64,000 nucleotides of DNA from contig NZ_JSVC01000008.1 in the NCBI RefSeq assembly GCF_000814475.1, positions 124,001 through 188,000 on the forward strand. The letters run 5' to 3'. The DNA is from Flavihumibacter solisilvae. Lineage in GTDB: Bacteria > Bacteroidota > Bacteroidia > Chitinophagales > Chitinophagaceae. Below are positions 38,749-41,670 of the stretch, in pieces. The notes beneath the pieces are model-generated. The model was given only the letters and a program-made list of their open reading frames with translations, was not told where the DNA came from and searched no databases. A program made the position numbers and the translations under genes. Each line of letters opens with the position of its first letter. Within the stretch, counting starts at the first letter, position 1.

Positions 38749-40443
38749 CTATGGAAAGCCCAGCGTTACCGCATGTCGGTAACGCCGGGTTTTTCCATTC
38801 AACCGGAAAATATCCGTTACTACAATATATATTCCGGCAGGCAGCCGGTTTCCTTTTTTATTTTCACCTCTCCAGCTGAACCGTCCACTCGTACCACACA
38901 GGGCATTATCTGCAAGTATCTTTTCAAGTTGCCCGTTCCAGTTATAAATACGGATGTTACATATAGTGCCAGGCTCGCTGAACTGATAACGTACTTCGCA
39001 GATTTCATCCAGACCGTCTCCGTCCGGCGTGAAAAATTCCGGTACTATTTTTACATCCTCCTTTCCTGATGCGGAAAGAACCTGCGAATTAATATAACCC
39101 GGCGTTCCATAACCAGCATGCATGGCTGCAGAGTGCCAGTTATTTCTGTCACCGGAAGCTGTATTCACATCCAATCGTTCGAGCGAAACGCCTTCACGCA
39201 CGCGTATCAGTGGGGCATGCCAGTTTTCTGAATAATTGACCTCGTCAAGAATCTTACCATCCGAAGTCGCCAGTAATACAGAGCCATTTTTATCCGGATA
39301 GGGTGGTAACGATTCCAGACTTATGATTGCCCCCGGGTAACGGGAATGATAATGCTTTTGTAACCAAACTGCATCAGGTGTAAAAACTGCGTATTCGCCT
39401 GGGAAAAGGTTCCGGTTATTACATTTTACAGGTCGGGGCGAAGTAATATCCCCACGATTATTTCGGGTAGCCAAAACCAGGGTCTGCAGATTTACAATAT
39501 TGCTTCCCAAATTGTAAACTTCAATGAAATCGGATCCGCCCGCAGGAGGATTGGTCATGAGTTCATTCAATACGATTCCATTCGCGACACTATCAGGAAG
39601 TGCCACCTTCACGGCCTCGCTGTTGGCATCAGCAGGTACTCCCATACAACTGCGGAGCTTAACGGGACCGATCTCATAAATGCGGTTGCGCTCGATTGGC
39701 CGGTCGAGCAGCAATTTTACTTCGCTGAAAAAAATCCCACTCGCTTCGGAAGACAGGACAGTGAGTCCTGGAAGAACAGAAAATGATGATGCCACCAACG
39801 CTTCTGCGAAATTGACAGTTTCGTTAAATACCAGGATTACACTCAGGCTATCGGGGCACCAGGCATGGCGGAGTTGGAATGGAGGGGCCGTACCTGGCTG
39901 GGGTTCATGACTATTTTTTCGCCCGGGTGTACCACCGCTTTCTGCATTACTTGGAAGCCAATTGTCAATCCTGCTGCATGCGCGGCTGAGATCAATCATT
40001 TCCAGGCTCCACCCTCCATTGCGTTTTACCCCTTCATACAGTTGCTCATTATAACCGACAGTGTGGACCGGTTTATTGTTCTGATCTGATAGGATCACGG
40101 TGTCACCTGCGTTAGTAAGGGCCGGAAAAGGGGAAATGGCAATTGTACGGCCCAGCCTTGAAAAGCCAGCCTTGCCATTAATTGAACAAATGATCACTAT
40201 ATCCCCGGGTAAGAGCACCGAACTGTCTGGTAATTTGCCTGTCGTTCGCCCATTCGAAACAGTCCAGCCTGAAATATCCAGCTCTACACCGCTGACATTT
40301 GTTAGCTCAATAAATTCTTCTTCCGGTAATCCAACAGAAGGCGAGGGGTCTGGGAAGACCTCACTGATCACCACCTGAAATGCCTGACCAGCAAGGCTTT
40401 CCGCCAACATTACCAGAACCGCACAAAACCATGTTCTCATCAT
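38749..40443 (-). CDS. Exported lamin-tail domain protein with FlgD-like C-terminus
   Basis: A 564-residue secreted protein. Signal peptide up to SLAGQAFQ. Two lamin-tail domains are visible: residues about 22-130 (VVISEVFPDPSPSVGLPEEEFIELTN) and about 295-410 (GIVLNELMTNPPAGGSDFIEVYNLGSN). The C-terminus (FFTPDGDGLDEICEVRYQF to WRGENKKGNRLPAGIYIVVTD) is the FlgD-Ig-like fold that ends many surface proteins of this phylum and may act in type IX secretion. Two lamin-tail folds are often found with nucleases, but no nuclease motif is present. Role: cell-surface protein, unknown binding partner. Confidence 0.85.
   Translation of the reverse strand: MMRTWFCAVLVMLAESLAGQAFQVVISEVFPDPSPSVGLPEEEFIELTNVSGVELDISGWTVSNGRTTGKLPDSSVLLPGDIVIICSINGKAGFSRLGRTIAISPFPALTNAGDTVILSDQNNKPVHTVGYNEQLYEGVKRNGGWSLEMIDLSRACSRIDNWLPSNAESGGTPGRKNSHEPQPGTAPPFQLRHAWCPDSLSVILVFNETVNFAEALVASSFSVLPGLTVLSSEASGIFFSEVKLLLDRPIERNRIYEIGPVKLRSCMGVPADANSEAVKVALPDSVANGIVLNELMTNPPAGGSDFIEVYNLGSNIVNLQTLVLATRNNRGDITSPRPVKCNNRNLFPGEYAVFTPDAVWLQKHYHSRYPGAIISLESLPPYPDKNGSVLLATSDGKILDEVNYSENWHAPLIRVREGVSLERLDVNTASGDRNNWHSAAMHAGYGTPGYINSQVLSASGKEDVKIVPEFFTPDGDGLDEICEVRYQFSEPGTICNIRIYNWNGQLEKILADNALCGTSGRFSWRGENKKGNRLPAGIYIVVTDIFRLNGKTRRYRHAVTLGFP
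38756..38794 (+). terminator. Rho-independent terminator of the PfkB kinase gene
   Basis: AAGCCC-GCGTTACCG (38756-38771, one mismatched A at 38762) pairs with CGGTAACGC-GGGTT (38777-38792), loop CATGT, then TTTTT. It lies inside the last codons of the convergent lamin-tail gene, whose stop is at 38749. Confidence 0.85.
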
Positions 40444-40491
40444 AAACCAAAACTAACAGGCTCCGGCACTATTTGCAATAGCAAAGAATTA

Positions 40492-40523
40492 TTTGGGTGA
40501 AAACACCCTGCACCTTATTTTCG
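40492..40523 (+). promoter_or_regulatory. Candidate Bacteroidota promoter of the asd leader
   Basis: TTTG at 40492-40495 (-33 element) and TATTTTCG at 40516-40523 (-7 element, one base from TAnnTTTG) are separated by 20 bases, the usual spacing. Transcription would start near 40530, at or just before the leader-peptide ATG, so the leader may be translated without a long 5' region. An upstream alternative promoter is possible. Confidence 0.35.
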
Positions 40524-40529
40524 CAAACT

Positions 40530-40592
40530 ATGACAATGATGAAACATACAACGAAGATTAAGAAACAGCTCCCCAACCAGGAAGGTGTATAA
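40530..40592 (+). CDS. Leader peptide of the asd attenuator
   Basis: A 20-residue open frame beginning MTMMKHTTKIKK and ending QEGV, stop TAA. Of the first 12 residues 11 are Met, Thr, Lys or Ile, the products of the pathway branch that starts with Asd. This codon bias is the signature of a leader peptide whose translation senses charged tRNA, as in thrL. It is followed 28 bases later by a strong terminator and then asd. ATGs at 40536 and 40539 are alternative starts and would keep the bias. Confidence 0.75.
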   Translation: MTMMKHTTKIKKQLPNQEGV

Positions 40593-40629
40593 TTGTAGTG
40601 TATGTTCTCAAAATAGACTCAAGCCTTCC
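40580..40629 (+). promoter_or_regulatory. Antiterminator arms of the asd attenuator
   Basis: GGAAGG (40580-40585) is complementary to CCTTCC (40624-40629), and the next pair is a possible U-G. The second arm is the left arm of the terminator stem, so the two structures exclude each other. A second alternative is CTCCCC (40569-40574) with GGGGAG (40635-40640). A ribosome stalled at codons 1-12 leaves GGAAGG free; a ribosome at the stop codon covers it. Confidence 0.65.
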
Positions 40630-40651
40630 CAAACGGGGAGGCTTTTTTTTT
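40621..40651 (+). terminator. Attenuator terminator upstream of asd
   Basis: AAGCCTTCCC (40621-40630), loop AAAC, GGGGAGGCTT (40635-40644), then nine T in total to 40651. Stem of 10 base pairs with one G-U. It lies 23 bases before the asd ATG, with no gene for it to end other than the leader peptide. Confidence 0.9.
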
Positions 40652-40674
40652 AAACCAAAAGCATACAAACGAAA

Positions 40675-41670
40675 ATGAAAGTCGCAGTTGTCGGTGCCAC
40701 CGGTCTCGTCGGCACCAAAATGTTACAGGTTCTGGCAGAACGTAATTTCCCCGTTACCGAACTTCTTCCGGTAGCTTCTGAAAGGTCCGTTGGAAAAGAA
40801 GTGGAATTCAAGGGAAAGAAATACAAGGTGGTTAGCATGACAGACGCGATTGCTGCCAAACCCGCTGTTGCGATTTTTTCAGCCGGTGGTGGTACGTCAC
40901 TTGAGTGGGCTCCGAAATTTGCAGAAGCAGGTATAACTGTTATCGACAATTCTTCCGCCTGGAGGATGGATCCTACAAAAGCACTTGTGGTTCCAGAGAT
41001 TAATGCTGATATTCTTACAAAGGACCACAAGATCATTGCAAATCCTAATTGTTCAACCATCCAGATGGTTGTTGCGTTGAACCCACTTCACAAAAAATAT
41101 AACATCAAGAGGCTGGTGGTTTCTACCTACCAGAGTGTTACAGGAACCGGCGTAAAAGCTGTTACTCAGCTGATGAACGAGCGCAATGGTGTGGAAGGTG
41201 AGATGGCGTATAAATATCCAATTGATCTTAACGTAATTCCTCAGATTGACGTTTTCCTGGACAACGGCTACACAAAGGAGGAAATGAAGATGGTCAATGA
41301 GACCAAAAAGATCATGCGTGACGACAGCATCCGTGTAACTTCTACAACTGTGCGCATACCTGTAATGGGTGGACATAGTGAGAGCGTAAATGTGGAATTT
41401 GAGAGTGACTTTAACCTGGAGGAAGTAAGATCACTCCTGTCAACATCACCTGGGGTGGTAGTGGTGGATGATCCTGCCAACGCACAATACCCGATGCCCA
41501 AAGACGCACATGAGCGTGATGATGTATTTGTTGGCCGCCTGCGTCGCGATGAATCACAGCCGAATACTCTAAACATGTGGATCGTCAGTGATAACCTTAG
41601 AAAAGGTGCCGCAACAAATGCTGTTCAGATAGCTGAATACCTGGTTGAAAAAAATCTTCTTGCGGTTTAA
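40675..41670 (+). CDS. asd: Aspartate-semialdehyde dehydrogenase
   Basis: A 331-residue enzyme that reduces aspartyl phosphate to aspartate semialdehyde, the branch point to lysine (and diaminopimelate for the cell wall), threonine, methionine and isoleucine. The NADP motif is VVGATGLVGTKMLQ, the active-site Cys is in ANPNCSTIQMVVAL, and the substrate-binding His is in VPVMGGHSESV (sequence IPVMGGHSESVNVEF). The gene is preceded by a leader peptide and terminator and followed by a bidirectional terminator, so it is transcribed alone. Confidence 0.96.
   Translation: MKVAVVGATGLVGTKMLQVLAERNFPVTELLPVASERSVGKEVEFKGKKYKVVSMTDAIAAKPAVAIFSAGGGTSLEWAPKFAEAGITVIDNSSAWRMDPTKALVVPEINADILTKDHKIIANPNCSTIQMVVALNPLHKKYNIKRLVVSTYQSVTGTGVKAVTQLMNERNGVEGEMAYKYPIDLNVIPQIDVFLDNGYTKEEMKMVNETKKIMRDDSIRVTSTTVRIPVMGGHSESVNVEFESDFNLEEVRSLLSTSPGVVVVDDPANAQYPMPKDAHERDDVFVGRLRRDESQPNTLNMWIVSDNLRKGAATNAVQIAEYLVEKNLLAV

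Follow-up and report, generated by a model that had tools for sequence, protein, structure and literature searches.

A conserved lysine- and threonine-rich leader upstream of asd in Chitinophagaceae, a probable ribosome-mediated transcription attenuator

Enterobacterial thrL is a leader peptide that reads Thr and Ile codons and controls thrABC. Multivalent attenuators of the ilvGMEDA type extend this logic, in that a single leader senses more than one end product of a branched pathway. Here we examine an element of related design in Flavihumibacter solisilvae, located in a stretch of 64,000 nucleotides (nt) of contig NZ_JSVC01000008.1 (positions 124,001 to 188,000; hereafter the window, whose own coordinates are used throughout). 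The element lies directly upstream of asd, the gene for aspartate-semialdehyde dehydrogenase. Judged from sequence and its conservation, it is very probably a ribosome-mediated transcription attenuator that would set asd transcription by reporting the charging of tRNA-Lys first, of tRNA-Thr second and possibly of tRNA-Met and tRNA-Ile. As in the thr operon, codons for pathway products are carried by a leader peptide 5′ of an aspartate-pathway gene, and the position of the ribosome would set the choice between terminator and antiterminator. In contrast to thrL, the asd leader is dominated by Lys together with Thr, is placed to control asd (plus dapA, through copies described below), and reaches only 13.8 bits against the Thr_leader family (RF00506) in a permissive search of 40400-40700, where the gathering score is 55. 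Its likeness to the ilvGMEDA-type attenuators is one of design, with the same multi-product logic applied to a different pathway. We know of no Lys-dominated attenuator leader in the textbook set. The kind of mechanism is known, and the multi-product variant is apparently undescribed.

Among published elements, the nearest relative that we have encountered is SEP5 of Sinorhizobium meliloti, a short open reading frame (sORF) with six Thr and three Lys codons clustered in the 5′ untranslated region (UTR) of a gene for "aspartate dehydrogenase" (PMC10117765). In the passages of that paper devoted to SEP5, its authors suggest a leader peptide and find the sORF conserved only in Sinorhizobium; those passages contain no analysis of an antiterminator. 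Both leaders are rich in Thr and Lys and precede an aspartate-pathway gene, but SEP5 comes from another phylum and the two are apparently convergent. Leader frames in 5′-UTRs have also been noted within the Bacteroidota, as clues to leader-peptide attenuation upstream of amino acid biosynthesis operons in Flavobacterium psychrophilum (PMC9723704) and as sORFs in the 5′-UTRs of Bacteroides thetaiotaomicron (PMC7366714); the relevant main-text passages of these two papers do not name asd, dapA or a Lys/Thr leader. A first-pass annotation of the window, which had proposed the attenuator, knew of no described asd attenuator in this lineage, and we likewise found no description of a Lys/Thr leader before asd in open-access papers and no corresponding family in Rfam. 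The comparative attenuator survey of Lopatovskaya et al. (2010), cited in PMC4833913, may hold an earlier prediction. The terms "asd" and "Bacteroid" are absent from the main text of PMC2965389.

All parts of the element lie on the plus strand. Direct reading gives a 20-codon frame, from the ATG at 40530 to the TAA at 40590-40592, that encodes MTMMKHTTKIKKQLPNQEGV. Within the putative control codons 1-12 (40530-40565; M T M M K H T T K I K K), 11 of the 12 residues are Met, Thr, Lys or Ile, the sole exception being His6. An antiterminator strand (40580-40586, with GGAAGG at 40580-40585) can pair with the left arm (40621-40630) of a terminator whose right arm (40635-40644) is followed by a run of T residues, the two together spanning 40635-40652. 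The frame, its bias toward aspartate-family residues, the GGAAGG segment and the terminator (placed at 40621-40651) are thus present as originally annotated. The pairing scheme built on GGAAGG alone was incomplete, because the antiterminator is joined by a conserved helix, which we denote 1:2, between a codon-region arm (strand 1, 40540-40550) and a downstream partner (strand 2, 40598-40610) that includes GTGTATGTT. The fold of 40492-40690 beats all 200 of 200 dinucleotide shuffles (z = -3.96).

To follow the element through relatives, the regions upstream of asd were collected from 152 genomes, comprising 15 of the window's genus and 137 others of its family, which the names of the relatives indicate to be Chitinophagaceae. 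Fourteen further rows, consisting of weak paralogues and fragments and including every row of G059 and G134, were excluded. A terminator search that ignored the peptide found a terminator 5′ of asd in 110 of the 152 genomes, and an ATG frame ends 20-47 nt 5′ of the stem in 104 of these 110. Three genomes with non-homologous open reading frames (ORFs) were then removed (G015, G114 and G152) and three were added by eye (G023, G076 and G111), so that the final set again numbers 104 of 152 genomes in which a leader frame precedes a terminator; 103 of these leaders are unique. Within the window's genus, 14 of 15 genomes have the leader, and for the remaining one (G012) there is no upstream sequence. 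Two genomes with loose Lys-rich frames (G106 and G119) were not counted, and no terminator was found in those two regions. For alignment, 84 leaders were chosen from the 103 at a pairwise likeness of at most 0.86. With a covariance model built from these diverse leaders, 94 of 147 family genomes give a match at E<=1e-4, and of 159 genomes drawn from the order, where stricter filters were used, 16 match at E<=1e-5, all of them in the family. Such conservation speaks to the possibility that the resemblance to an attenuator is a chance product of an A-rich stretch and a terminator close to asd. Codons for Lys, Thr, Met and Ile all begin with A, which makes 11 of 12 less rare in A-rich DNA; however, the occurrence of the leader in 104 of 152 genomes, the covariation seen in three helices and the presence of a copy before dapA in 13 genomes leave chance resemblance exceedingly improbable.

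The short ORF that precedes this biosynthetic gene is enriched in codons for pathway products, and it is conserved as a coding sequence. Met, Thr, Lys and Ile make up 52.6% of the leader frame, compared with 18.5% and 19.4% when the same DNA is read in its two alternative frames (104 leaders, including three non-homologous ones). Lys is the most conserved residue, present in 62-77 of the 84 aligned leaders at each of four positions. Position 8 holds Lys in 77 leaders (AAG in 46, AAA in 31), Thr in 5 and Ile in 2, and thus one of these three in all 84, while Lys11 and Lys12 each occur in 71 of 84 (AAA in 53 and AAG in 18 for Lys12). Thr occupies position 10 in 46 of 83 leaders and uses all four of its codons (ACA 16, ACC 13, ACG 11 and ACT 6), with Ile in another 14. 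Residues at positions 6 and 9 are mostly not of the aspartate family (Arg, Lys, Cys, Asn, Val and others at position 9). Base pairing can explain them, and the 1:2 helix in particular can explain the frequent retention of His6 (CAT). Most of the window's genus, though not G006, reads KHTTK(I/T)KK, in which position 9, too, is an aspartate-family codon. The C-terminal half of the peptide is variable in length and sequence.

Conservation of the codons can be separated from conservation of the RNA by the synonymous variation at Thr10, Lys8 and Lys12. This bears on the alternative that a ligand-binding riboswitch or a protein-bound leader governs the terminator and that the short frame is accidental. 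The RNA helices are indeed conserved, and some of the peptide conservation (KHT and codon 9) is explicable by base pairing. However, synonymous variation is seen at codons 10-12, which are not part of the counted 1:2 helix, and the position of the leader stop codon follows that of the antiterminator strand, falling immediately before the strand in one class of leaders and immediately after it in the other. In addition, no Rfam family, and thus no lysine riboswitch, SAM riboswitch or T-box, was found at gathering score when the whole 64-kb window was searched against Rfam 15. The best sub-threshold match in 40400-40700 was to the Phe_leader family (RF01859), at 29.6 bits against a gathering score of 55, and it spans only 40585-40650. 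A riboswitch or protein-bound leader is very unlikely on this evidence.

Pairing of the proposed RNA strands was assessed by comparing each leader's own partner stretch with the partners from all other leaders, using the 103 unique leaders without removal of relatedness. Own pairing was better in 97 of 103 leaders for the two terminator arms (p 7e-18), in 89 of 103 for the codon region with the GTATGT stretch of strand 2 (p 5e-13) and in 71 of 103 for the antiterminator strand with the left arm of the terminator (p 7e-7). RNAalifold retains an intrinsic terminator between the leader ORF and the gene, with compensatory changes in seven of nine consensus pairs. For the 1:2 helix, changes on both sides are seen in six of eight pairs, and 72.5% of the cells are paired. 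The antiterminator, which is mutually exclusive with the terminator, has 88.1% of its cells paired across the 84 leaders, and seven cells are changed on both sides, a number that none of 500 shuffles reached; its covariation score was equaled in 1 of 500. By eye, CCTTTCC accompanies GGAAAGG in G041 and G135, and CCTTCTC accompanies GAGAAGG in G028 and G083. The first-pass annotation had proposed aligning asd 5′ regions to test whether codon bias, GGAAGG/CCTTCC pair and terminator change together, and the peptide frame, the pair and the terminator do co-occur (104 of 152) and co-vary, although some measures for the antiterminator fall within controls.

The placement of the stop codon connects the peptide to these structures. 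In all 103 unique leaders the stop codon begins within -15 to +6 nt of the antiterminator strand, from 15 nt after its first base to 6 nt before it, a count that is limited, though not fixed, by the preselection of ORFs that terminate 20-47 nt upstream of the stem. Because the stop codon is near the antiterminator strand in both positional classes, a terminating ribosome would cover that strand. Codon 12, in turn, begins a median of 17 nt 5′ of the strand in the 84 leaders, the same distance as in the window, which should be far enough for a ribosome stalled there to leave the strand free. In 32 of the 84 leaders this distance is only 11-14 nt, and codon 12 itself is borderline in those. When ribosome footprints were masked and the transcript was folded to an end 4 nt into the right arm, the antiterminator formed with a probability above 0.5 in 101-102 of 103 leaders with a stalled ribosome and in none of the 103 when the ribosome was placed at the stop codon. 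Stop placement and footprint folding agree that a ribosome at the stop would mask the antiterminator and that one at the control codons would not, and together they support the switch originally proposed, in which stalling permits the antiterminator and arrival at the stop codon favors the terminator.

These features suggest the following scheme, in which translation, stalling, kinetics, the response to amino acids and the start of the transcript are steps that we infer. RNA polymerase would initiate close to the leader AUG, producing a leaderless or almost leaderless mRNA on which a ribosome would load. When Lys or Thr is scarce, the ribosome would stall at codons 5-12, where it would cover strand 1 and block the 1:2 helix but stop short of GGAAGG. 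The free GGAAGG could then pair with CCTTCC before the right arm of the terminator is made, permitting read-through into asd. If amino acids are sufficient, the ribosome would reach the stop codon and cover GGAAGG, whereupon the terminator would form and transcription would end. The leader thus seems to give many members of one family a means of raising an early step shared by Lys, Thr and Met synthesis when those amino acids run short. It would represent a well-conserved example of apparently classical attenuation in Bacteroidota, and it gives a likely meaning to short frames in some hundred genomes.

Copies of the leader at other genes help to define which amino acids might be sensed. A second match at E<=1e-4 occurs in seven family genomes, and in seven of seven it lies directly 5′ of dapA, the first gene of the lysine branch (identified by TIGR00674). 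Searches around two of these genomes added six more copies, for a total of 13 genomes (L288-L294, L326, L328, L330, L332, L333 and L335); another genome from those searches, G305, has only the asd copy. In most other dapA loci displayed, dapA follows another reading frame. Over the first 14 residues, the dapA leaders have on average about as much Lys as their asd counterparts in these 13 genomes (4.38 versus 4.46 per leader) but less Thr (0.85 versus 1.69) and less Met (1.15 versus 2.31). By genus, from asd to dapA, Thr falls in four of five and is equal in one, Met falls in three and is equal in two, and Lys goes up in two genera, down in two and is unchanged in one. Position 10 holds Met, Thr, Lys or Ile in 65 of 83 asd leaders and in none of nine alignable dapA leaders (p 5e-6, among related sequences); the dapA residues were read by eye, and four dapA leaders of genus g24, gapped at this position, were left out. 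On a crude similarity score, the g24 dapA leaders reach 59 with their own asd leader and at most 43.5 with dapA leaders from outside their genus, and the dapA leaders of G042 and G098 reach 73 with each other, above any asd leader. Because the g24 copies resemble their own asd leader and the G042 and G098 copies resemble each other, at least two separate transfers to dapA are suggested; the dapA leaders of G016 and G115 are close calls on this score, and that of G049 fits neither group well. In the window's own genome, the asd leader scores 103.1 bits in a search for paralogous leaders and the next matches 36.7 bits and below; five of these weaker matches (L241-L244 and L246) look like ordinary terminators, as does a second match in G035 (L338). 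By eye, dapA of this genome closely follows another reading frame, and no leader was seen there.

Because the dapA copies keep Lys and lose the Thr or Ile of position 10, and because a leader before lysA (below) is rich in Lys, the comparison points to Lys sensing, with Thr sensing in addition at asd; Met and Ile would be less certain. The first-pass annotation had the leader sense three or four amino acids. Of these, Lys is best supported and Thr comes next, and sensing of all four at once is no more than possible, Met and Ile being supported only as frequent substitutes. A narrower explanation is that the peptide senses Lys only, or Lys with Thr, and that Met and Ile codons are incidental to A-rich sequence near the start codon. 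The prominence of Lys at four positions, the average Lys content of the dapA copies alongside their reduced Thr and Met, and the Lys-rich lysA leaders (MTLIANIKTIKTKKPYLYG and a near copy) of genus g2 all favor it. However, replacements at Lys positions 5, 8, 11 and 12 are mostly Thr, Ile or Met (35 of 55, against 2/7 expected from single-base changes; p 8e-8, not corrected for phylogeny), Thr10 is retained with all four synonymous codons, and asd leaders are richer in Thr and Met than the dapA leaders of the same genomes. We rate this narrower sensing, of Lys alone or of Lys with Thr, a serious possibility that nonetheless falls clearly short of an even chance. Perhaps instead the near-leaderless peptide is an OR-gate for all Asd end products (Lys, Thr, Met and Ile) that was copied at least twice to dapA, where it shed Thr and Met codons and kept Lys, so that a whole-pathway sensor was retuned to a single branch. 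This broader proposal is tentative, and we place it just under even. Genomes with both leaders constitute a natural experiment, for which we would expect Thr limitation to raise asd and not dapA, and Lys limitation to raise both.

Several observations weigh against attenuation by this leader, or against the amino acid specificity assigned to it. The frequency of Met, Thr, Lys and Ile would be inflated by A-rich DNA alone because all four codon sets begin with A. No leader was found in 48 of the 152 genomes, upstream sequence being absent or incomplete in three of them (G012, G092 and G030). The antiterminator sequence is nearly fixed, and the 71 of 103 leaders noted above are the only ones in which its own pairing tops the cross mean; among the 15 leaders without CCTTCC, own pairs fall below that mean in five. 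Three antiterminator measures lie within the range of shuffles, namely paired cells (35 of 500 as high), pair types (486 of 500) and double-changed pairs (265 of 500). Structures slid by 1-3 columns give 4-19 double-changed cells against the seven observed, with far fewer paired cells. In the absence of any ribosome, the antiterminator already exceeds a probability of 0.5 in 68 of 103 leaders before the right arm exists. For full-length RNA at equilibrium, the terminator exceeds 0.5 in 71-77 of 103 leaders even when the ribosome is stalled, and in the window its probability is 0.43, 0.06 and 0.93 at three stall positions. Because equilibrium favors the terminator even then, the antiterminator must win kinetically, by the order of events during transcription. 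In the dapA comparison, Ile is not lower (1.46 per dapA leader versus 1.15 per asd leader), and the counts are not independent because the 13 leaders come from only five genera.

Leaders of other genes in the pathway are rarer. Among 30 lysA loci, a Lys-rich leader is present in two, both of genus g2 (L340 in G015 and L341 in G114), which encode MTLIANIKTIKTKKPYLYG and the near copy MSLITSIKTIKTKKPYLYG. Each has a strong terminator, and a GGTGAGC/GCTTACC pair is seen by eye; no asd leader was found in this genus. The LysA match there is 224.8 bits, below the cut-off of 297.9, with only 276 residues supplied. A weak candidate before another lysA (L349) was not counted, and no terminator was found 5′ of lysA in the window's genome (L353). 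For thrA, 3 of 30 loci have a terminator, which in one of them (L393) comes after an ORF, and no asd-type pattern was found in this survey, in which the script misplaced the gene start in at least L383 and L384. With one thrA leader candidate in 30 loci, the data suggest that in Chitinophagaceae the gene at which aspartate-pathway transcription is tuned is asd and not thrA. In L393 (G043), a strong terminator 18 nt before thrA follows a 31-codon, Ile-rich frame with two Thr, MNNRNIISSASSGSYIIAGGTIIITCENSWR, which is a possible Ile/Thr leader of thrA.

Among 80 named asd loci, 24 carry the leader (22 found by script, plus L058 and L091, which lie below the script's thresholds and were recognized by eye). 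Carriers include Niastella yeongjuensis, Limnovirga soli, Filimonas and Parafilimonas. The script gave no leader in the loci of Mucilaginibacter, Pedobacter, Sphingobacterium, Dyadobacter, Hymenobacter, Algoriphagus or flavobacteria among these 80, two of the leaderless loci (L076 and L082) having less than 250 nt of upstream sequence. Two script flags in Polaribacter were dropped because they mark the C-terminus of a transporter-like gene. In four flavobacterial loci (L100, L124, L125 and L129), asd is preceded by a channel-like gene and a plain terminator, and no leader frame was seen.

The regulated gene itself (asd, 40675-41670) is assigned by TIGR01296, which its product matches with 429.6 bits against a cut-off of 324.2. 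Among named records, the closest Asd is that of Flavihumibacter sp. UBA7668, at 91% identity. The ORF upstream of asd (38749-40443, minus strand; 564 residues) has no NCBIfam match at 1e-10. It is divergent, and therefore the terminator can act on asd transcripts only. In L285 (G042), a similar-looking frame is likewise divergent to asd by eye.

Two predicted promoter elements precede the leader, a -33 element TTTG (40492-40495) and, after a 20-nt spacer, a -7 element TATTTTCG (40516-40523) of the TAnnTTTG type with one mismatch, a box consensus that we take to be of the Bacteroidota promoter type. A perfect TAnnTTTG lies within 60 nt of the leader ATG in 60 of 103 leaders, compared with 4% of base-shuffled stretches. 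In 49 of these 60 the box is 4-13 nt from the ATG, and a perfect TTTG is present at a spacer of 16-21 nt in 48 and of 19-21 nt in 47. Because the predicted boxes end 6 nt before the ATG, the transcript would start near the leader AUG, and the mRNA is likely leaderless or nearly so, beginning close to 40530 and not at 40492.

The trpL leader ORF of S. meliloti likewise lies at the very 5′ end of its mRNA, and both its peptide and its attenuator RNA are reported to act in trans (PMC7298713). The trpL leader concerns Trp in an alphaproteobacterium, and the leaderlessness of the asd leader is predicted from promoter boxes only. This precedent raises the alternative that the asd leader chiefly supplies a short terminated RNA or a peptide that acts in trans, with attenuation secondary. 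However, the sequence data do not call for action in trans, and the C-terminal half of the peptide varies in length and sequence, which makes a primary role in trans highly improbable relative to attenuation in cis. A short inverted repeat, GGGTGAAAACACCC (40495-40508), is kept in much of the window's genus and sits between the predicted -33 and -7 boxes, probably within the promoter spacer. If the mRNA is leaderless or nearly so, this repeat would be promoter DNA and not RNA, and it is possibly an operator rather than an RNA structure.

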